Shown in pieces: positions 5,165 through 23,556 of a DNA stretch of 48,354 nucleotides. The notes under the pieces were generated by a model. The model saw only the letters and a list, made by a program, of their open reading frames with translations, was not told the origin of the DNA and made no database searches. The translations under genes were made by a program, and so were the position numbers. Within the stretch, counting starts at the first letter, position 1, and every line of letters starts with the position of its first letter. Source of the stretch: Bacteroidota bacterium. GTDB taxonomy: Bacteria > Bacteroidota > Rhodothermia > Rhodothermales > UBA10348. The DNA lies in contig JAJCYQ010000004.1 of assembly GCA_029262835.1 (NCBI GenBank), forward strand, positions 1-48,354, given 5' to 3'.

Positions 5165-8100
5165 ATGTCTCGCTTCATCGACGCGTCCCGTTACATCCTT
5201 TTCCTGCTGGCCGCCATTCTCACGCTGCCGGCTGCGCCGTCTGCGGCCCAGACGGCCGACCCCGCGCTCCTGGAGGGCCTTGAATACCGGTTCGTAGGCC
5301 CCAATCGCGGTGGCCGTAGCGCCGCCGTGACGGGCGTTCCCGGCAAACCCGACCTCTATTATATGGGCGCGACCGGTGGCGGCGTGTTCCGGACTACCGA
5401 CGGAGGGGAGTCCTGGCAGCCGATCTCGGACGGCTATTTTGGCGGATCGATCGGCGCCGTGGCGGTTTCCGAGTGGGACAATAACGTAATCTACGTAGGC
5501 GGCGGTGAGAAGACGCTCCGCGGCAATGTATCGCACGGATACGGCATGTGGAAATCGGTCGACGCCGGCAAGTCGTGGCGTCAGATCGGGCTCGAAGATT
5601 CCCGGCACATCGCGCGCGTGCGCATCCATCCGAAAAATCCGGACCTGGTCTATGCGGCGGCCATGGGCCACCTGTTTGGGCCCAACAACGAGCGCGGTGT
5701 GTACCGCTCGAAAGATGGGGGCGCGACGTGGGAGCGGGTCCTGTTTGTGAGCGACAAGGCGGGCGCGGTCGATCTCATCATGGATCCGACGAACCCGCGC
5801 GTGCTCTACGCCTCAATGTGGGAGGTGTACCGCTCGCCCTACGAGTTGTCCTCGGGCGGCGAGGACTCGGGACTCTGGAAGTCAACGGACGGCGGCGACA
5901 CGTGGACGGAGCTCACCAACCAGGACAACGGGCTGCCAGGGGGGGTGCTTGGCATCATCGGGGTTACGGTATCGCCCGTGAATCCGGATCGGGTCTGGGC
6001 CATTGTCGAGCACGATGAAGGCGGCGTGTTTCGCAGCGAGAACGGCGGTGAGACGTGGCGGCGCATCAATGAGGACCGGAATCTGCGCCAGCGCGCCTGG
6101 TATTACACGCGCATGTATGCCGGGACCCAGGATGAGGACGACGTGTGGGTGCTGAACGTGGGCCTGTGGCACTCGAAGGACGGCGGAGAGAATTACGAGC
6201 GCGTCCGGACGCCGCACGGCGACCATCACGATTTCTGGATTGCGCCGGAAAACGCCGATCGGATCATAGTGGGCGACGACGGTGGCGCGCAGGTGACCTA
6301 TAACGGCGGCGAGACGTGGAGCACCTACCACAACCAGCCGACGGCGCAGTTCTATCGGGTTGCCACAGACAATCATTTTCCCTACCGGATCTACGGCGGG
6401 CAGCAGGACAACTCGACCGTACGCATCCTGCACACGTCAACCGGGAGCGAGAACGACTGGGAGTCGACAGCGGGCGGCGAGAGCGCCTGGCTCGCCCCGA
6501 ACCCGGATAACCCCGACATCGTGTTCGGCGGATCGTACGGCGGATACCTGCAGCGGCTTGACCATGACACGCGCCAGTCGCGCAATGTGAACGTGTGGCC
6601 GGATAATCCGATGGGACACGGCGCTGAAGACTACAAATTCCGCTTCCAGTGGAATTTCCCCATCCGCTACTCGCGCCACGTACCCGGTCGCGTGCTCACG
6701 GGCGCGAACGTACTCTTCAAGACGGACAACGAGGGGCAGTCCTGGGAAGCCATTTCGCCGGATTTGACTCGCGCCGACCCGAGTACGCTCGGCCCGTCGG
6801 GAGGTCCGATCACGAAGGACAACACGGCCGTTGAATACTACGCGACCATTTTCACGTTCATTGAGGGCGAAGAGGAGGGTGTGATCTGGACGGGTTCGGA
6901 CGACGGACTCATCCACATAACCCGCGATGGGGGCGCCTCGTGGACGGACGTCACGCCGCCTGCCTCCATGTTTCCCGAATGGATGCAGGTCAACGACATG
7001 GTGCTCGATCCCTTCAATGCCGGCGGCCTGTACGTGGCCGGCACGCGCTACAAGTCGGATGACTTCGCCCCGTACCTCTACAAAACGGACGATTACGGCG
7101 CATCATGGACCAAAATCACGCGCGGTATAGATCCGCTCCACTTCACGCGGGCCATTGAGGCCGATCGCGAAATCCGGGGCCTCCTCTACGCGGGCACCGA
7201 GAGCGGCATGTATGTTTCGTTCGACGACGGCGCCAACTGGCAGACCTTCCAGATGAACCTGCCCATCGTGCCCATTACGGACCTCGAGTGGCGCGACAAT
7301 GACCTCGTCATCGGCACCCAGGGCCGGTCCTACTGGATCATCGACGACCTCTCGCCGGTGCAGGCGGTGGCAGGCCTCCATGCCGGCTCGGGAGCGTCGG
7401 GGCCAGGCTCCGGCCTGGACTCGGATGGCAGCTACTTCTTCCCCGAGCCGCACCCCGTGACGCTCGGTGCCGAGCGGACCGTGCGCTTGCGCTACTGGCT
7501 GTCAGAGGGCGCGGCCACGGAGCAGGACGAAAAGCTGACGCTCCGCATCCTGGAAACAGATGGCACGGTGATCAATACCTTTGAAGGGGACGACGTGCCG
7601 TCCGAAGCCGGCTTCAACCAGTTCGACTGGAACATGCGCTACGAGGACGCCGAGTCCTTCCCCGGCCTCATCATGTGGGCCGGCTCGGTCCGCGGCCCAC
7701 AGGCCGTACCGGACACGTACCATGCGCGCCTCATTGTCGGCGAGGACTCGACCGACATTCCGTTTGCCATTCAGCCCGATCCGCGCTCGGAGTCGACCAT
7801 GGCCGACTACCAGGAGCAGTTCGATTTTCTCATCGACGTGCGGGACAAGCTGACGTTGGTGCACAAGGCCATCAAGAACATCCGCACCATGCGTACGCAG
7901 ATGAAGGATCTCGTGGGCCGGATTCCTGTGGATGCGGCGGAGCGCGACGACATCAAGGCCATGGCGGACAGTATTTCGGCCGATATGACGGCCGTGGAGG
8001 AGGCGCTCTACCAGACGAAGAACCGCTCCGGGCAGGATCCGCTTAACTTTCCCATTCGCCTGAACAACAAGCTGGCGGCTGTGGGCGGCGTGGTGGCGAG

Positions 8101-8266
8101 CGGCAACTACCGCCCGACCGACCAGTCCTACGCCGTCCGCGATGAACTCGTGGCGCAGATAGACGACGAACTCGGCCGGCTCGCGACCATCATGGACATC
8201 CGCATTCCCGAGTTCGAGTCCCGGATTGCCGCGCTGAACCTGCCGGTCCTGGAGCGGCCGGAGTAG
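5165..8266 (+). CDS. Secreted BNR/VPS10 (sortilin-like) beta-propeller protein (copy 1)
   Basis: A 1,033-residue exported protein. The start at 5165 opens a clean signal peptide (MSRFIDASRYILFLLAAILT... cleaved near SAAQ); the frame is open 42 codons further upstream but that part is not secretory. The mature protein begins with the family hallmark FVGPNRGGRSAAVTGVPG and then runs through many Asp-box/BNR repeats of the S/T-x-D-x-G-x-T/S-W type (for example TTDGGESW, SVDAGKSW, SKDGGATW, STDGGDTW, TRDGGASW, KTDDYGASW). These form the ten-bladed VPS10/sortilin-like propeller. A helical C-terminal domain (about residues 880-1033) follows. Family members are often misannotated as glycosyl hydrolases; no catalytic residues are evident. 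A paralogue lies at 40108-43248. A Gly/Ser-rich insert (HAGSGASGPGSG) sits in a loop before the C-terminal region. Binding partner unknown. Confidence 0.88.
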   Translation: MSRFIDASRYILFLLAAILTLPAAPSAAQTADPALLEGLEYRFVGPNRGGRSAAVTGVPGKPDLYYMGATGGGVFRTTDGGESWQPISDGYFGGSIGAVAVSEWDNNVIYVGGGEKTLRGNVSHGYGMWKSVDAGKSWRQIGLEDSRHIARVRIHPKNPDLVYAAAMGHLFGPNNERGVYRSKDGGATWERVLFVSDKAGAVDLIMDPTNPRVLYASMWEVYRSPYELSSGGEDSGLWKSTDGGDTWTELTNQDNGLPGGVLGIIGVTVSPVNPDRVWAIVEHDEGGVFRSENGGETWRRINEDRNLRQRAWYYTRMYAGTQDEDDVWVLNVGLWHSKDGGENYERVRTPHGDHHDFWIAPENADRIIVGDDGGAQVTYNGGETWSTYHNQPTAQFYRVATDNHFPYRIYGGQQDNSTVRILHTSTGSENDWESTAGGESAWLAPNPDNPDIVFGGSYGGYLQRLDHDTRQSRNVNVWPDNPMGHGAEDYKFRFQWNFPIRYSRHVPGRVLTGANVLFKTDNEGQSWEAISPDLTRADPSTLGPSGGPITKDNTAVEYYATIFTFIEGEEEGVIWTGSDDGLIHITRDGGASWTDVTPPASMFPEWMQVNDMVLDPFNAGGLYVAGTRYKSDDFAPYLYKTDDYGASWTKITRGIDPLHFTRAIEADREIRGLLYAGTESGMYVSFDDGANWQTFQMNLPIVPITDLEWRDNDLVIGTQGRSYWIIDDLSPVQAVAGLHAGSGASGPGSGLDSDGSYFFPEPHPVTLGAERTVRLRYWLSEGAATEQDEKLTLRILETDGTVINTFEGDDVPSEAGFNQFDWNMRYEDAESFPGLIMWAGSVRGPQAVPDTYHARLIVGEDSTDIPFAIQPDPRSESTMADYQEQFDFLIDVRDKLTLVHKAIKNIRTMRTQMKDLVGRIPVDAAERDDIKAMADSISADMTAVEEALYQTKNRSGQDPLNFPIRLNNKLAAVGGVVASGNYRPTDQSYAVRDELVAQIDDELGRLATIMDIRIPEFESRIAALNLPVLERPE

Positions 8267-17014: not shown

Positions 17015-18553
17015 TCAACGCGATTTTCCGTGGGCTTCCGCGTAGATCGACTCGATCTCAGAAATTTCCTCCGGTGTCAGGCGTGAGAATTCGCGGCTGC
17101 GTGCGCGCGCCGACAACTGGCCGCCGTTCTGGTGCAGGAAGTTGTGAAGCAGGTGCACGGTGTCGCGCGGCATGTCAATGATTTGCTGCACGGCATCTGA
17201 AAATGCATCGAAGGCTTCGAGGAAGGCAACTTCCTCGACAAGATCCTGCTCAACGGTCTCGCGGACGCATGCGTAGAGAAACTCCGCGTGGGCCGTGGCA
17301 TCGAAGTAGCGGTAGAAGTGCGCGGTGTCGCCGACTACCTGGATATTTTTCTGTTCGGTAGGCATCCAGTCTATACAGGCGAGAAGCGGACGCGCCCATG
17401 ATTCCAGGACGCGCCTGTACGCATCCACATTGCGCAGCATGGCGGCGCTGATGGGGAACGGTACACCGGTGGGATGGTAGTCAGCCTTTGCCAGCACATG
17501 ATGGATGAGCCATCGATGCAGGCGGCCATTGCCGTCCGAGAATGGGTGGATGTAGACGAAACCAAACGACACCATGGCCGCCCGGATAACGGGATCGATG
17601 GTGGCCGTGCTCTCGGAAAACCGGATGAGGCCTTCGATGAGAGACGGGAGGTCCTCGGCCCTGGCCGAGATATGCTCTGGAACAGGATCGTTCGTGAAGC
17701 GGTCCCGGTGGCCGACAAAGCCACCATCGCGGCGAAGGCCGAGCTGCACGAGGCGGTCATCGCCAATGACCATCTTTTGAAGTCGCTCCAGGGCCGGGAT
17801 ATCAAGATCCGCATCGCCAGCTTCGGCAATGGCGCGGCCCCATCGCCTGGCCCTGTCGGGCGACGGCCGTTCTCCCTCGATTTCGAAAGAGGACCGGCTG
17901 TCGCTCAGAAGCAGGAAAGCGGCCGCTCGGGACAGTATGTCCGGACGCACCCGGCCCAAGGCTTCGCGTGCGCGCTCATCCCACCGGGCGTGGACGGCGT
18001 GGCGAAGCGCGTCGGTCCACCTGACTGTGGGACAGAACAGTGGTGTTCCAGGCAGGTTGTCCCGCACCCGGTGGCGGGTGGAAAGCATTCCTTCTGGAAG
18101 TCCAACCTGCTGTGACGTGTCCAGGACATCTACCGCGGTCGGGCGTCCATCCAGATCGGGTATATCCAGTTGTTTGCCGGTCAGCCACTCGTAGAGATAC
18201 CAGATGCGGCGCGTATAACGCCCGAGTGGTGCTGACGTGATGTAGTCGATAAGGACATCTACTGGCAGCACCTGGAAGAGCGCGTGCAGTACCGAAAGGT
18301 CAACGCCTTCCTGCTTGATGGCGAACTCGAGGTGGGCACTCACGGTCGAATCTGGAGGACGCTTGCCCGACACGATGAGCCATTCCTGACTGCTGTCAGG
18401 GTGGTTACGGTCGGCGATGAACGCCGGTCTTGCCGGAGGCGGAACGTTCAGGTCGAAATGGTCAATGAGCGCGGCATACCCGGCCGGGCGTCCCGATTCC
18501 GGCAGGGCACGCCCGCGCCACATGCGCGTGGAAGGTGTTTCCTTCAGTTGCAT
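17015..18553 (-). CDS. Fic-domain AMP-transferase, class II (inhibitory helix before the core)
   Basis: A 512-residue protein with the canonical Fic motif HPFSDGNGRLHR (catalytic His336), which transfers AMP from ATP to hydroxyls of target proteins. An inhibitory (S/T)-x-x-x-E-(G/N) helix, SFEIEG at residues 222-227 with Glu226, lies N-terminal to the Fic core, defining class II auto-inhibition. The long N-terminal domain (1-200) and C-terminal region (about 400-512) match the large soluble Fic proteins widespread in bacteria; the end (LTPEEISEIESIYAEA) is helical. Targets are unknown. No adjacent antitoxin gene was seen, consistent with in-cis inhibition. Three phased TTTGCAA repeats lie directly upstream. 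Confidence 0.9.
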   Translation of the reverse strand: MQLKETPSTRMWRGRALPESGRPAGYAALIDHFDLNVPPPARPAFIADRNHPDSSQEWLIVSGKRPPDSTVSAHLEFAIKQEGVDLSVLHALFQVLPVDVLIDYITSAPLGRYTRRIWYLYEWLTGKQLDIPDLDGRPTAVDVLDTSQQVGLPEGMLSTRHRVRDNLPGTPLFCPTVRWTDALRHAVHARWDERAREALGRVRPDILSRAAAFLLLSDSRSSFEIEGERPSPDRARRWGRAIAEAGDADLDIPALERLQKMVIGDDRLVQLGLRRDGGFVGHRDRFTNDPVPEHISARAEDLPSLIEGLIRFSESTATIDPVIRAAMVSFGFVYIHPFSDGNGRLHRWLIHHVLAKADYHPTGVPFPISAAMLRNVDAYRRVLESWARPLLACIDWMPTEQKNIQVVGDTAHFYRYFDATAHAEFLYACVRETVEQDLVEEVAFLEAFDAFSDAVQQIIDMPRDTVHLLHNFLHQNGGQLSARARSREFSRLTPEEISEIESIYAEAHGKSR

Positions 18554-19228: not shown

Positions 19229-19786
19229 ATGATCATGGGAAGAGCCTTGTTCAGGATAGGCATATTTCTTGCACTGGTTATATCAGCATGGAATGTCATC
19301 GTAATCATGGAAAGACAGGCTCATCTTCGAGAGGTTGTCTCTAGCGTATTGGAGGATGGAAGGGCTGATCCACAGCTGTATGAGGAACTCCGTCGCAGCA
19401 TCGAAACGGGACAACCTGGTAGTGGAGGTGAGGACGAAAGAGCTGTGCTATACATAGCCAATGCTGGTTTATGTGCCACCTATTATGATGACATTGAGGC
19501 TTATTCTACGTACCTGACTCAGCGTGGTGTATCGTCCCATACGCTATTTTTATGGCACACCGATGCGCGCATCTCCGAACGAATGAAGTATCTGGCCTCT
19601 AAGAGATTGAATATCGACGTAATCGCCTTGTCAAACTCTGACTTGGAGCACCTATCCAGACAGCTTCCCGATAGAGCTATAGCGCTTCTGCCAAGTCGGT
19701 CGGGAGAGTCGATACATCAAATACGACTTCAATCGAGAAGAGTAGAGAACTGGCTGAGAGAGGCTACATTAGGCGATCTGCTATAA
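19229..19786 (+). CDS. Membrane-anchored thioredoxin-fold-like protein with a degenerate active site
   Basis: A 185-residue protein, not matching a named family I can recall. An N-terminal membrane anchor (about residues 6-26) is followed by a charged helix (VSSVLEDGRADPQLYEELRR) and a domain from residue ~68 with an alternating strand/helix order: AVLYIANAGLC, helix, HTLFLWHTD, helix, IDVIALSNSD, then AIALLPSRSGESIHQIRL. This order and the Cys at the end of the first strand suggest a thioredoxin fold in the periplasm, but only one Cys is present (CATY instead of CxxC). It could act as a binding or regulatory domain. It heads a cassette with the small Cys-rich peptide and the split propeller gene. 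Base composition is AT-richer than in neighbouring genes, a sign of transfer. An alternative start is 19235. Confidence 0.55.
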   Translation: MIMGRALFRIGIFLALVISAWNVIVIMERQAHLREVVSSVLEDGRADPQLYEELRRSIETGQPGSGGEDERAVLYIANAGLCATYYDDIEAYSTYLTQRGVSSHTLFLWHTDARISERMKYLASKRLNIDVIALSNSDLEHLSRQLPDRAIALLPSRSGESIHQIRLQSRRVENWLREATLGDLL

Positions 19787-19830
19787 CGAGTAATTATAAA
19801 CGCGAATCAAACAATCAACAAAGAGAGAAA

Positions 19831-20079
19831 ATGAACTTTCCATTCAGTGCAGAATACAATATGCGAAAAATGGCCCTGGCGATATTCGTTTTTGGAGCAT
19901 TGTTCGTAACGTCGGCATTCAGAGTTACACTCCCAGTAGTGCCAGAACCAACATGCACATCATGTGGCTCCGTTGATGATTGTATTTATGGCGTTTCCAG
20001 ATCGAATGGGTACCCAGAGTGTTTTATCGGATGGGATGTTAATTCGGAAACATTAACATGCAGTGTTTCGGGGGAGTAA
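19831..20079 (+). CDS. Small secreted Cys-rich peptide
   Basis: An 82-residue protein whose N-terminal ~33 residues are a signal peptide (KMALAIFVFGALFVTSAF), leaving a mature peptide of about 50 residues with five Cys: a CTSC pair, then single Cys at irregular spacing, the last six residues from the end. AAAGAGAGA precedes the ATG; starts at 19861 or 19870 would still leave a leader. It sits 44 bases after the thioredoxin-fold gene and one base before the propeller gene, clearly one operon. It recalls the short NVEALA-type exported peptides that neighbour six-bladed propeller proteins in Bacteroidota, but lacks that literal motif. Role unknown; odd Cys number leaves one free or suggests dimer formation. 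Confidence 0.6.
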   Translation: MNFPFSAEYNMRKMALAIFVFGALFVTSAFRVTLPVVPEPTCTSCGSVDDCIYGVSRSNGYPECFIGWDVNSETLTCSVSGE

Positions 20080-20080
20080 G

Positions 20081-20459
20081 GTGCGTGTTCGCCAACTTAA
20101 GGAATTCTGTGATCTGCTGCTACGTCTGTCCGTACTATGGGCCACGTTCGTCGGTGTGAATTCTGCCTTTGGGCAGGTCAGGTATACTGTTCCACATAAC
20201 GTACAGTATACGATTGGGGATGATGTAGGCCCAGACGGAGAATATGCATTTGCCCAGATCCGGCATCTATTGAGCGATGGGGTTTATTTTTACGTAATTG
20301 ACGGAAAGTCGCCGTCCGTACGATTCTATGAGTTGGAGTCTGGACAGTATCGTGGCTCCTTCGGACGGCAGGGAGACGGTCCCAGGGAGTTTCAGGATAT
20401 CTATAGCGGGTACGTACACAAAGACAGTACGCTCTGGCTCTTTGACCGGTCGTTGCAGA
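20081..20459 (+). pseudogene. Six-bladed beta-propeller protein, 5' part (split by IS66)
   Basis: GTG 20081 is preceded by a strong GGGGGAG at 20070-20076. It opens a signal peptide (LLLRLSVLWATFVGVNSAFG) and the first propeller blades, with FYELESGQYRGSFGRQGDGPREF, a segment typical of NHL/6-bladed propeller proteins of Bacteroidota. The frame runs into IS66 after residue 126. Removing the IS and one copy of the 8-bp duplication joins base 20459 to 22742 perfectly in frame (Gln-Lys-Met), restoring a 397-residue protein. As it stands, the reading frame continues into IS DNA and ends at 20626. Confidence 0.8.
20452..20459. repeat. IS66 target-site duplication, left copy
   Basis: GTTGCAGA directly precedes the left end of the IS and recurs directly after its right end (22734-22741). 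Eight bases is the characteristic IS66-family duplication length. Confidence 0.92.
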
Positions 20460-20525
20460 GTAACCGCCCGGTGAAGTACACATTGCGCAGGTCGCTGTCC
20501 GTCCCCATTTTTCTGGCAAAAAGGG

Positions 20526-20822
20526 ATGGGGATGCCAGGACAACGAAAAATAGAGGATATGCGGCCGCTCGTGGAGGCCTTCGAAGCGGGTTCGGAGCGA
20601 CGCGAGGACTTTGCAGCGCGGCATGACATCAAGGTCGGAACGCTTGACTACTGGCGGCGCCGGTGCCGGGAAGAGGGCGCGGAGGCCTTTATAGAAGTCC
20701 GGCCTGATATTCACGAGCGCCGGTCAGTGGTCGACCTTGAGTTCGCAAACGGCGCGAGGCTCTCGTACAGCGGACCTCTCGACGCGGCGCTTCTTCTCAT
20801 GCTTGTCGATCGCGCCCGATGA
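20526..20822 (+). CDS. tnpA: IS66-family accessory protein TnpA
   Basis: A 98-residue protein with an N-terminal helix-turn-helix-like segment (RPLVEAFEAGSERREDFAARHDI...TLDYWRRRCREEG), the usual form of the small IS66 orf1 product. The exact role is unclear but it is needed for efficient IS66 transposition. Its end overlaps tnpB by four bases (ATGA), indicating coupled translation. ATG 20532 is an alternative start. Confidence 0.88.
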   Translation: MGMPGQRKIEDMRPLVEAFEAGSERREDFAARHDIKVGTLDYWRRRCREEGAEAFIEVRPDIHERRSVVDLEFANGARLSYSGPLDAALLLMLVDRAR

Positions 20823-21172
20823 CGCCGTTTACGCCTAATCAACGGTTCTTCTTCTACCGGGAGCCCACCGACATGAGGAAGTCTTTCAACGGCCTCAGCG
20901 GCATCGTGACGAACAGCCTCAGGCGTAGCCCTGTCTCTGGCGACGTGTTCGTTTTTCTGAACCGCCGCCGCACGCATGTCAAGCTGCTTTCGTGGGACCG
21001 AAATGGGTTCGTACTCTACTACAAAAGGCTCGAAGAAGGCACGTTCGAGGTGCCCATCCTCTCGCCAGACGGGGTGCTCACGTGGCCCAAACTGATGCTC
21101 ATGCTGGAAGGCGTGTCCCTCAGTACAGCTCGCTTCAGAAAACGGTACGTTTTGCCCGATAAAGTGGCCTGA
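20819..21172 (+). CDS. tnpB: IS66-family accessory protein TnpB (IS66 Orf2-like)
   Basis: A 117-residue protein with the family core: REPTDMRKSFNGLSGIV, DVFVFLNRRRTHVKLLSWD, GFVLYYKRLEEGTFEVP. These are the signature of the IS66 Orf2-like domain. It is full length for the family and lies between tnpA (4-base overlap) and tnpC. Confidence 0.95.
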   Translation: MTPFTPNQRFFFYREPTDMRKSFNGLSGIVTNSLRRSPVSGDVFVFLNRRRTHVKLLSWDRNGFVLYYKRLEEGTFEVPILSPDGVLTWPKLMLMLEGVSLSTARFRKRYVLPDKVA

Positions 21173-21232
21173 ATGTATAAATAATGGCACTCTGTCCTGG
21201 GATGAGAGGGTTCGTTTTTGTATCTTTCTGGT

Positions 21233-22717
21233 ATGGAAATGGATGCTCAAACAGCTACCTACAAGGCGCTTCAAACCGAAGTTGTCATGCTGCGCGAGCA
21301 CAAGTCTTCCCTCGAGGAGGAGCTGGCGAATCTGCGCTTCCAGTTCGAGCAGCTGAGGCGTCTTGTCTTCGGCGCGAAGAGCGAGCGCTTCGAACCGGAA
21401 TTGCCCGACCAGCTGGGACTTTTTGGACAGGAAGCGCCGGGAGGCCCCGTCGCCGCGCCCGTGTCCGAGTCTACAACGACGACAAGTGAGCGCGCGGAGA
21501 CCAAGAGGCACCCGGTTCGAGTCGTCTTTCCGTCCCACCTTCCGCGGCAGACCACCGTCATTGAGCCGGACATTGATACGACCGGCCTCAGGAAGATCGG
21601 CCAGGAGGTCACCGAGACGCTCGACTTTGTGCCCGCAAAACTGATTGTCGTCCGGCGCGAGCGGCCCAAGTATGAAACGCCGGACGGCCAGGTCGCGATA
21701 GCCGAGCTTCCGGCGCGGCCGATCGACAAAGGTATTGCCGAGCCCCGCCTCCTGGCGCACGTCGTGGCAGCGAAATACCTGGACCACATGCCGCTCTACC
21801 GGCAGGCGCAGCAAATGGCGAGGCAGGGCATTACGATTGCCACATCGACGCTTGGCGGCTGGGTCAGTCAGACGGCAGACCTTCTCACGCCGCTCTATGA
21901 CGAGTTGACGCGCAAGGCGCGGGAATCGGGCTACGTTCAGGCCGATGAAACGCCGATCCGCGTGCAGGACAGTAAAAAGAAGGGCGAGACGCATAGAGGC
22001 TGGTACTGGGTGTATCATGCTCCGGAAAAAGGCATCGTGATCATGGATTACCATGCGAGCCGCGGGCGGGCGGGTCCCGCCGCGTGGCTTGGCCCGGACT
22101 ACGACGGGCTGCTTCAATCGGATGGCTACGCGGTCTATAACCAGTTTGCAAACGCAACGCATGCCGTCTGCTGGGCGCATGCCCGGCGCTACTTCCACGA
22201 CGCGCAGGAGTCGACCGCCGAGCGGGCCGAGTATGTGCTGGCTGAGATCCAGAAGCTGTATGCCATTGAGCGGCAGCTTCGAGAGGAAGACGCAGCGCCC
22301 ACTGAGCGCACCCGCGTGCGGCAGGAGAAGGCCACGCCCATCCTTGAGGGCCTCAAAACCTACATCGAAAACAACCCGGGGCTCCCGAAATCGCCCTGGG
22401 GCAAGGCGTCCTCCTACGCGCTCACGCGGTGGGACAAGCTGACGCGTTACGTCCTCGAGGGACGGCTTGAAATAGACAACAACCTGACCGAGAACACCAT
22501 CCGCCCCATAGCATTGGGTCGAAAAAACTGGCTCTTCAGCGGAAGTCACGACGCGGCGCAGCGGGCAGCCGTCATCTACTCGCTCGTGGCCACGTGCAAA
22601 AAGCACGGTGTGAATCCTGAAACGTGGATGGCCGACGTCCTGGCCCGCATTCCAACCCATCCGGCGAAGCGGATTGAAGAGCTCCTACCAATGGACTGGG
22701 AGAAAAGAAAGGTGTAG
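21233..22717 (+). CDS. tnpC: IS66-family transposase TnpC
   Basis: A 494-residue DDE transposase. Domain order: an N-terminal leucine-zipper-like coiled coil (about 8-45), a region that in other IS66 transposases holds a C4 zinc finger but here lacks those Cys (TGLRKIGQEVTETLDFVPAK), and the DDE core with Asp in YVQADETPI, Asp in LLQSDGYAVY and Glu in DNNLTENTIRP. The ending GVNPETWMADVLARIPTHP is the usual C-terminal domain. ATG 21233 was chosen; a TTG at 21218 would add five residues. The stop lies in the right terminal repeat of the element. Confidence 0.95.
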   Translation: MEMDAQTATYKALQTEVVMLREHKSSLEEELANLRFQFEQLRRLVFGAKSERFEPELPDQLGLFGQEAPGGPVAAPVSESTTTTSERAETKRHPVRVVFPSHLPRQTTVIEPDIDTTGLRKIGQEVTETLDFVPAKLIVVRRERPKYETPDGQVAIAELPARPIDKGIAEPRLLAHVVAAKYLDHMPLYRQAQQMARQGITIATSTLGGWVSQTADLLTPLYDELTRKARESGYVQADETPIRVQDSKKKGETHRGWYWVYHAPEKGIVIMDYHASRGRAGPAAWLGPDYDGLLQSDGYAVYNQFANATHAVCWAHARRYFHDAQESTAERAEYVLAEIQKLYAIERQLREEDAAPTERTRVRQEKATPILEGLKTYIENNPGLPKSPWGKASSYALTRWDKLTRYVLEGRLEIDNNLTENTIRPIALGRKNWLFSGSHDAAQRAAVIYSLVATCKKHGVNPETWMADVLARIPTHPAKRIEELLPMDWEKRKV

Positions 22718-22733
22718 TCCACCGGACGGTTAC
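22711..22733 (-). repeat. IS66 right terminal inverted repeat
   Basis: Read inward from 22733, it matches the left end (20460-20482) except for three substitutions in the first 21 positions. It contains the tnpC stop codon. Confidence 0.9.
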
Positions 22734-22741
22734 GTTGCAGA
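22734..22741. repeat. IS66 target-site duplication, right copy
   Basis: GTTGCAGA, identical to 20452-20459; together they define the insertion point in the propeller gene. Confidence 0.92.
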
Positions 22742-23556
22742 AAATGGAAACCTACCGGCAGGGCGTTCATGTAGAGACGCTGCGGATTTCAGACGATGAG
22801 TTCATGGCTCCGCAGGTGTTCTTTCTTGAATCCGACTCACTGGTCGTCGCGCACTCAACGCTGAATTCCGATGGGGCCGTGGAGTGCATCGACCTGAAAA
22901 GCCGAAGCAAAGTCTGCTCGTGGCTTGATCTTCGGCCCGTTTTTGGATCGGAAAGGTATCCGCTCGAAAATGATCGGACCCTTGCAGACTGGATACGGAT
23001 CGCTCATGCAGGCCGCAACACGGCATATTTCGTAAGGGACCTCTACGATGGAACCGTATGGAAGGCAAGGTTTGACGGCAACTCAGAGACGGTGACTGCG
23101 CTTAGCAGCTCAGGATATGCCACGGGTACCGGGTATTTCGCGAGTGCGGGCCGTGTCTATAAAGCGCTGAATTACTTTGACTACTATGGGCGTGATGGCG
23201 GTGTTCGGGAACGCTACCCGTACCACTATTCCATATATTCAGTCTTCAATGGAGGGCAGCGACACCCGAGGATGTATCACATGTTTTCATCCACGCTGAA
23301 CATGTGGATGGATCCGTCTGGAGAAGAGGTATATATCGCGTATGTCCTGCATCGGGAAGACAGGGGATCGGACATGTTTGTGGACGCAGTCAGCATTGAG
23401 ACCGATTCTGTGCGTACGGTACAGGTTGCCACCTGGACAAGCGGACCCAACACCGTCCGAGATATGCTTCAGATCGGCAGGAATGAATTCCTCGTAGAGG
23501 GCATTTTGGACGGCATCCCTGTTATCTCCAGGATGACGCTTGAACTTGGTGAGTGA
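22742..23556 (+). pseudogene. Six-bladed beta-propeller protein, 3' part (split by IS66)
   Basis: This continues the frame broken at 20459 and supplies about 271 residues: METYRQGVHVETLRISDDEF, further blade strands (VFFLESDSLVVAHST, AYFVRDLYDGTVWKARF, MWMDPSGEEVYIAYVLH) and a normal end (VISRMTLELGE). A TTG at 22735, within the duplication, or the ATG at 22744 could start a partial product, but without the signal peptide it would not be exported. Together with the 5' part it makes a 397-residue six-bladed propeller, probably a surface or periplasmic binding protein. Confidence 0.8.

Follow-up and report, generated by a model that had tools for sequence, protein, structure and literature searches.

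A gene trio recurs as a unit in genomes of the class; it encodes a thioredoxin-fold-like protein, a short exported peptide rich in Cys, and a protein with a six-bladed propeller. It may represent an exported-peptide module in which the thioredoxin-fold protein pairs the Cys residues of a variable peptide and the propeller binds this peptide, an interpretation given about an even chance of being correct. In such a module, the hydrophobic leader would carry the peptide precursor out, and the anchored thioredoxin-fold protein would form or reshuffle the peptide disulfides via its invariant first Cys. The end product would be a small mature peptide with its Cys paired in disulfides, for which the exported or lipid-anchored propeller would represent the binding partner. 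The following features were assigned within the window, i.e., the whole analyzed stretch of 48,354 nucleotides:

19229..19786, + strand: thioredoxin-fold-like protein, 185 aa (ORF; homologues at the equivalent position; fold of a homologue)
19831..20079, + strand: exported Cys-rich peptide precursor, 82 aa (ORF and profile matches)
20081..20459, + strand: six-bladed propeller gene, 5' part, signal-peptide-like start (ORF; profile match)
20452..20459, no strand: 8-bp target duplication GTTGCAGA, left copy (repeat flanking the element)
20460..22733, + strand: IS66-family insertion sequence, 2274 bp, within the propeller gene (TnpA/TnpB/TnpC matches, ends, target duplication)
20526..20822, + strand: IS66 TnpA accessory gene (NF047593, 37.4 bits vs. 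cut-off 28)
20819..21172, + strand: IS66 TnpB accessory gene (PF05717, E 2.6e-32)
21218..22717, + strand: IS66 TnpC transposase (PF03050, E 5.7e-93; NF033517, E 5.7e-127)
22734..22741, no strand: 8-bp target duplication GTTGCAGA, right copy (repeat flanking the element)
22742..23556, + strand: six-bladed propeller gene, 3' part (identity to the unbroken propeller of G001)

The three adjoining same-strand genes described in the earlier note were recovered at these positions, with 44 bp between the first two ORFs and a GTG start codon of the propeller gene at 20081, one base past the peptide stop; the third, previously taken for a single gene, is split by an IS66 element. The 185-aa protein possesses a hydrophobic N-terminal helix, likely a membrane anchor, and its sole Cys is C82 (context NAGLCATYY), in agreement with the lone active-site Cys noted before. 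Likewise, the 82-aa precursor carries the five Cys including a CxxC (CTSC) that had been reported, in a layout of a hydrophobic leader followed by CxxCGS...C...C...C. The AT-richness ascribed to the trio was also reproduced, with GC contents of 47.5% for the 185-aa gene, 43.8% for the peptide gene and 50.9% and 53.1% for the propeller parts, as compared to 61.3% for the window.

By script, the full trio was detected at opened loci from 26 of the 244 class genomes searched, distributed over 14 genera and six families, and in three genomes outside the class. Among 33 thioredoxin-like ORFs with context, 27 were followed downstream by a peptide gene, 31 by a propeller gene and 26 by both; within this count, both partners were present at 13 of the 17 loci recruited with thioredoxin profiles only. 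Since peptide and propeller neighbours were found for only one of 131 control genes, the trio is a recurring unit, beyond chance, and the anticipated co-occurrence of the three genes was borne out. Three ordinary genes adjoining by chance would suit the patchy distribution of the trio among genomes and the result that neither the 185-aa nor the 82-aa protein has a Pfam or NCBIfam match above cut-off; this explanation is contradicted by the recurrence against the control in so many genera and families, and is hardly credible.

Doubtful peptide-profile matches in G067, G165, G230, G367 and G428 were left uncounted, and the trio was absent from the loci opened in G230 (L057, at a contig end), G428 (L093) and G367 (L096). 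A further peptide match (L012) proved spurious, being located within a long transporter-like ORF. G002 was considered as an empty site, where relatives of both flanking genes adjoin without the trio, but in reversed order; this region is rearranged, because the relatives lie in another order, and the candidate was rejected. For the follow-up thioredoxin-profile search, context covers rows with a locus, rows opened earlier, and G128:C9, G050:C19 and G071:C110. No propeller hit was obtained within approximately 1.5 kb on each side of the matches L161-L164, L166 and L169-L174, and no exported Cys-rich peptide was visible by eye in the same flanks; L161, L162 and several further thioredoxin-profile matches presumably resemble ordinary TlpA-type proteins.

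The insertion in the window propeller gene is a complete IS66 element, featuring tnpA, tnpB and tnpC, terminal inverted repeats with 19 of the 22 outermost bases matching, and an 8-bp target duplication, which is typical of IS66 elements. The gene is broken because this transposable element inserted into it; its pieces (20081-20459 and 22742-23556) are mutually in frame and add up to 398 codons including the stop, and the propeller gene of G001, a genome of the same genus, is unbroken and devoid of the insertion. Identity of the 3' part amounts to 83.5% over 273 aa with the G001 propeller and to 44.4% over 270 aa with the other propeller copy of the window genome. Using a profile built without same-genus rows, the 5' part was matched at E 1.4e-10, and the 3' part alone gave no match (E 5.5). 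The split propeller probably leaves the window copy at least partly inactive. All three reading frames are open in the second trio copy of this genome (L042).

The thioredoxin fold postulated for the 185-aa protein found support in a homologue (L069), which models as such a fold with a pLDDT of 81.6 and a pTM of 0.75; the window protein's own model is of low confidence (pLDDT 48.0, pTM 0.39), with strands and helices in the same order as in the homologue. In Foldseek searches, the L069 model matched 55 PDB chains at E <= 0.001, the best being AhpC (2.7e-5), and TM-scores by query length ranged from 0.32 to 0.50 among the 50 matches listed. Its structural neighbours include a Sco protein, redoxins and 6gc1. 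The first Cys of the motif is invariant in all 24 aligned homologues, and the second, completing a CxxC, is present in 19 and absent in five from several lineages. The window protein, reading CATY in place of the CxxC of a dithiol oxidoreductase, represents the minority form with its lone Cys. Redoxin was matched by two of the 12 members of alignment A4 (best E 0.23), and the thioredoxin-like protein of the G538 trio scored above the Pfam Redoxin cut-off (28.4 vs. 26.6 bits). A pairing of 8-Cys peptides with CxxC proteins and of 6-Cys peptides with lone-Cys proteins was ruled out, as 6-Cys peptides accompany CGNC in G167.

Conserved Cys, as expected for the peptide, are a property of the family. 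The number of Cys is even in 40 of the 43 listed peptides, most relatives of the window peptide having six or eight, and a CxxC was detected by script in 39. This count leaves out the middle peptide of L056 (frameshifted), L133 (in-frame stop), L129, L053 (N run), L054 (contig end), the small Cys ORF 2770-2994 of L134, and NVEALA peptides. With its five Cys, the window peptide belongs to the three odd-numbered ones among the 43 and may therefore be a shortened copy. The frequent CxxC, a MauE redox-membrane gene adjoining the thioredoxin-like gene in G538, and the structural similarity to a Sco protein and to redoxins would also suit an envelope relay for electrons or a metal, in which the peptide is the carrier, is reduced or loaded by the thioredoxin-fold protein, and has the propeller as its scaffold. 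This relay is considered quite improbable: even Cys numbers and the fast change between the Cys, observed in one genus, fit disulfides acting as a scaffold more readily than a cofactor site under conservation, and loss of the second thioredoxin Cys in five of 24 homologues likewise speaks against it.

Comparison of G050 and G071 revealed DNA identities of 96.5% for the thioredoxin gene, 98.4% for the leader, 71.2% for the mature peptide and 92.8% for the propeller. In the mature peptide, 23 of 49 residues differ and none of the eight Cys does. In one genus, the mature part is thus fast-changing on a fixed Cys scaffold next to a near-constant leader and thioredoxin-like gene, which points to specificity. 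Within a tandem trio array in G167, thioredoxin-like proteins are 98.5-99% identical, peptides 52-68% and propellers 56-73%, and sliding DNA identity delimits diverged peptide-propeller blocks. For the mature part, six comparisons of four peptides from one genus gave a dN/dS of about 1 (0.82-1.88), with values below 1 excluded by no bootstrap (smallest share 0.084). Recombination is as good a cause of the divergence, because dS is raised as well. In two other pairs (copy B of G000/G003; L048/L052), the mature part changes no faster than the leader. Moreover, strict co-divergence of peptide and propeller is weakened, since the G050 and G071 propellers are 92.8% identical where the mature part varies most.

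This divergence pattern fits a specificity system, e.g., strain-specific signalling or recognition. A bacteriocin with immunity, whose disulfide peptide kills relatives and whose propeller protects the producer, would draw on the same fast change in one genus as well as on tandem copies, patchy distribution and the diverged peptide-propeller blocks. The propeller is broken beside an open peptide frame not only in the window, but also at L137, where a Mutator transposase lies within the propeller region, and in the third trio of L056, where the propeller is in pieces. Broken propellers count against a bacteriocin because a producer that loses immunity should pay for it, except where the peptide is not expressed or protection comes from a further copy, and this alternative is regarded as unlikely.

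For the preferred peptide module, the closest known counterparts are NVEALA (PF14055)/DUF5128 loci of Bacteroidota, whose peptides and propellers are already catalogued families. The likeness proposed earlier holds, since these loci combine a short exported Cys-bearing peptide with six-bladed propellers. The peptide also differs from the NVEALA type as stated: the motif N-[VI]-E-A-L-A following the leader is present in NVEALA rows and in none of the 43 listed peptides, and PF14055 matched none of the 20 members of alignment A3 at E <= 1, nor the window peptide, nor any sequence of G000. In contrast, the thioredoxin-like partner does not set the trio apart, as had been assumed: of the four NVEALA stretches opened in two genomes, two (L206 and L207) carry thioredoxin-like, NVEALA and propeller genes in the window order on one strand. 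This order was not found by script at L204 and not seen at L205. Furthermore, the two thioredoxin-like families align in profile-profile comparison (hhalign E 2.7e-6). Differences lie in the fusion of the L206 and L207 thioredoxin-like proteins to DUF1573, with another NVEALA-propeller pair upstream, in a signal peptidase S26 gene at L204 and L207 (other trios lacking a systematic search), and in the Cys numbers of NVEALA peptides, which are not consistently even (nine peptides with 2, 3, 4 or 6), a point that speaks against the preferred module. PF17170 (DUF5128) matched 12 of the 13 propellers of alignment A5 at E <= 0.1 (best 1e-16), missing the second copy of the window genome; the window propeller stayed below the gathering score in its N part (E 0.24, 11 bits vs. 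22.9) and had no match in its C part.

The thioredoxin-fold partner in recurring order provides a concrete, testable candidate chemistry, namely disulfide pairing; if this is correct, a family of bacterial peptide systems would become accessible to direct testing. A wider proposal remains tentative and rather doubtful: an undescribed, Bacteroidota-wide class of exported peptides that evolve fast and are stapled by disulfides, with NVEALA as one branch, an own thioredoxin-fold maturase (plus a signal peptidase at some NVEALA loci) and a matched propeller reader, serving strain recognition or rivalry. Within the literature covered, which excluded subscription papers and preprints, no paper naming NVEALA was found, and none on such loci appeared among the matches listed for DUF5128/6-bladed propellers and NHLRC2 (titles and abstract starts). 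The iron-response tables of B. thetaiotaomicron, as excerpted, list a gene with DUF1573 and, far from it, one for a 6-bladed propeller, and leave NVEALA unnamed (PMC10434189).

The anchored proteins ResA and DsbE share the thioredoxin fold and, with 19 of the 24 trio homologues, the CxxC; they differ from the trio proteins, which mostly have no Redoxin match, have lost the second Cys in several lineages and are accompanied by peptide and propeller. NHLRC2 and SOQ1 are single fused proteins without a peptide gene, and no conserved neighbours were found in the seven bacterial genomes analyzed in PMC6107167. According to the same paper, the Trx-like domain and six-bladed propeller of NHLRC2 are joined such that they surround a putative ligand cleft. 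Both proteins resemble the trio in placing a Trx-like fold beside a six-bladed NHL propeller, and their Cys motif, located close to the interface, is atypical (PMC6107167). The presence of 6gc1 among the Foldseek matches of the L069 model adds to the likeness with NHLRC2.

The three genes of the window, with gene starts taken throughout as the first possible start, were called as follows:

19229-19786, + strand, 185-aa ORF for the thioredoxin-fold-like protein, first gene of the trio
19831-20079, + strand, 82-aa ORF, gene for the Cys-rich peptide
from 20081, + strand, propeller ORF with a GTG start

Their tight packing as claimed in the earlier note was confirmed, 44 bases separating the first gene from the second and one base the second from the third. 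The higher AT content of the trio was also confirmed, GC values being 47.5% for the 185-aa gene, 43.8% for the peptide gene and 50.9% and 53.1% for the two propeller parts versus 61.3% for the window. A gene for a Fic/DOC family protein is located upstream of the trio (17015-18553, - strand). The propeller, previously described as one secreted protein from a single gene, is in fact split by an IS66-family element encoding TnpA, TnpB and TnpC (20460-22733). At the element's termini, 19 of the 22 outermost bases match (28 of 40), and GTTGCAGA flanks it on either side. The propeller pieces on both sides share one reading frame, and in G001, a genome of the same genus, the gene is uninterrupted at the insertion site; the 5' and 3' pieces of the window are 84.2% and 83.5% identical to it, respectively. 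At other sites, the window genome carries partial pieces of the element and one more full-length copy, which is 75% identical.

Screening against Pfam matched 12 of 13 propeller homologues to DUF5128 (PF17170) at E ≤ 0.1 (best 1e-16), the window pieces falling short of this family. A propeller profile lacking same-genus rows recovered the N-terminal part in the window at 1.4e-10 and did not find the C-terminal part, which was assigned to the propeller through its sequence identity to G001 and to the second trio copy of the window genome. Classified by a crude motif, the propeller N termini correspond to signal peptides or lipoboxes, with several left unassigned. In two genomes, homologous genes of 683 and 673 aa follow the propeller (L128, 1512-3563; L136, 963-2984); their products are 38.9% identical over 661 aa and have no Pfam match at E ≤ 0.001.

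Within the genus, the window genome (G000) harbors the second trio with every frame open (L042), and G001 contains an orthologue of the window trio as well as, at a contig end, a thioredoxin gene paired with a peptide gene. Furthermore, a trio with a diverged eight-Cys peptide occurs in G002 (L090); in the trio of G003, the thioredoxin ORF comprises 131 aa counted from the first usual start. In G002, relatives of both genes flanking the window trio adjoin without a trio; their order is reversed, which rules out a clean empty site.

Used as a single query, the window peptide matched in 9 of 148 relatives. Among the 244 genomes of the class Rhodothermia, the peptide profile recovered 16 at E ≤ 0.01, including three doubtful cases, and the profile of the 185-aa family 27, some via short stretches only, e.g., G087. 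Small ORFs were accepted by criteria set by us (55-130 aa, a hydrophobic stretch and at least four Cys, or two for NVEALA stretches in the trio script). The opened loci contain 33 thioredoxin-like ORFs of at least 100 residues with at least 1.4 kb downstream, some of which came in through the peptide profile; next to them on the downstream side lies a small exported Cys-rich ORF in 27 cases, a propeller in 31 and both in 26. By comparison, only one of 131 other genes at the same loci precedes such a small ORF, namely a family peptide (L050). The proposed co-occurrence of the three genes in other genomes was thus borne out, with the proviso that loci were in part selected via the same profiles they then support and that the genomes are mostly incomplete. 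At the 17 loci recruited by thioredoxin profiles alone (L090, L127-L137, L140-L144), the peptide was present in 14, the propeller in 16 and both in 13. Applied to the opened loci, a script requiring all members of the trio on the same strand and no more than 1.5 kb apart retrieved 29 genomes, counting fragmentary thioredoxin ORFs (44-131 aa in G003, G081, G092, G222 and G493): 26 of the class, spanning 14 genera and six families, plus G493, G538 and G504. G001 is absent from this count because a run of N merges peptide and propeller. Gene order differs at L050, L198 and L200. Among six loci in named MAG records (Rhodothermaceae, Rhodothermales, Bacteroidota), four hold the full trio (L069-L072), and L073 and L074 end at a contig end.

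The expected conservation of Cys positions in the peptide was likewise observed: C42, C45, C51 and C64, together with G46 and G54, are invariant in 20 peptides. An even Cys number after the leader was counted for 40 of 43 listed peptides (six in 21, eight in 17, four and twelve in one each; binomial p 3e-9, relatedness ignored). The window peptide, with five Cys, is among the three odd-numbered ones; it terminates at SVSGE, and the second copy extends to SVSGSQGSC. A CxxC past the leader was scored in 39 of the 43, and two of the four misses (L047, L052) carry it just ahead of the script's cut. In G163, the peptide frame has an in-frame stop beside the first CxxC (L133, 1240-1720), which may represent a pseudogene, an assembly error or recoding.

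Concerning the first gene, structure prediction supported the postulated thioredoxin fold for a homologue of 198 aa (L069; pLDDT 81.6, pTM 0.75), and the model of the window protein itself is poor (pLDDT 48.0, pTM 0.39), its structural elements following one another in the same order. Foldseek matched the homologue's model to 55 PDB chains at E ≤ 0.001, AhpC being the best (2.7e-5); DsbF, DsbE, ResA, peroxiredoxins and NHLRC2 were among the 50 matches listed, at modest TM-scores of 0.32-0.50 (query length). With a profile built outside the genus, the window protein scored weakly (E 0.069) and the second copy encoded in its genome reached 1.5e-4; G167 was found by the genus profile at 0.004. 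In an alignment of 24 homologues, the first Cys is the sole invariant column, and motif position four is occupied by Cys (19), Tyr (2), Ser, Pro or Ile (one each). Additional lone-Cys forms (CLDS, CDAF, CKNS) occur beyond this alignment. Pfam Redoxin matched two of 12 members in the class weakly (best E 0.23), and the member of the G538 trio exceeds the cut-off. In G538, which lies outside the class, a gene for a MauE-family redox membrane protein immediately precedes the thioredoxin-like gene (L197, 5348-5845).

Comparison of G050 and G071, two genomes of one genus, revealed DNA identities of 96.5% for the thioredoxin gene, 98.4% for the leader, 71.2% for the mature part, 92.2% for the spacer and 92.8% for the propeller. 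Over the 49 residues of the mature part that were compared, 23 positions and none of the eight Cys differ (Fisher p 0.0046). Comparing four peptides of this genus pairwise (six comparisons) gave dN/dS values of 0.82 to 1.88 for the mature part, with bootstraps excluding values below 1 in none, and of 0.29 to 0.37 for the leader. Since mature dS is raised as well, recombinational exchange is as good a cause of the rapid change as selection. For copy B of G000/G003 and for L048/L052, the mature part is not faster than the leader. In the tandem array of three trios in G167 (L056), which includes a frameshift in the middle peptide and a fragmented third propeller, the thioredoxin-like proteins are 98.5-99% identical, the peptides 52-68% and the propellers 56-73%. 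From the upstream region across most of the thioredoxin gene, DNA identity amounts to 94-100% (81% in one pair's first sliding window); it drops inside the leader and then, over mature peptide and propeller, lies at about 55-86% for one pair and 43-76% for the other.

A trio of G167 contains a Mutator-family transposase (PF00872; two ORFs) within the propeller region (L137, G167:C6:615000-625500, 5877-8220), a second instance of a propeller gene hit by a mobile element. An open peptide frame stands beside a broken propeller in the window, in L137 and in the third trio of the array. These cases speak against the propeller being a vital immunity protein and favor an accessory trait subject to frequent loss. 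At L202 (2351-3514) and L203 (5446-6597), the propeller ORF start resembles a peptide leader (MTDKSKRLFG/MTDKSKRLCG) and runs directly into the propeller lipobox; no peptide was found adjoining these ORFs, apparent deletion fusions.

The anatomy of the trio fits a putative exported, disulfide-paired and propeller-bound peptide, whose precursor would be exported, whose Cys would be paired into disulfides by the dedicated thioredoxin-fold protein and which the propeller would bind. NHLRC2, in which a six-bladed propeller and a Trx-like domain frame a putative ligand cleft that surrounds an atypical Cys motif (PMC6107167), shows that both folds can sit together, the Trx-like domain being reported as inactive in an insulin assay.

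NVEALA peptides (PF14055) exceeded the cut-off in two of 360 genomes only, G423 and G504 (11 places), and four such stretches were opened (L204-L207). The resemblance to NVEALA-propeller loci noted earlier holds for gene order: at L206 and L207, a CTSC thioredoxin-like protein fused to DUF1573 is followed first by an NVEALA peptide, then by a DUF5128 propeller, as in the window trio. The thioredoxin-like partner, however, is not distinctive, being present at both loci, which differ from the window in an extra NVEALA-propeller pair immediately upstream of the thioredoxin gene. Profile alignment related the class thioredoxin-like family to that of the NVEALA loci (probability 88.5, E 2.7e-6, 108 columns). 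At L204, the script found neither peptide nor propeller within 1.5 kb of the thioredoxin-like gene, and L205 is without a thioredoxin-like match. None of 20 tested trio peptides matched PF14055, and they are therefore kept apart from NVEALA. Signal peptidase S26 genes lie inside two NVEALA stretches (L204, 13835-14725; L207, 2293-3180), and the ALA ending the NVEALA motif may be a cleavage site.
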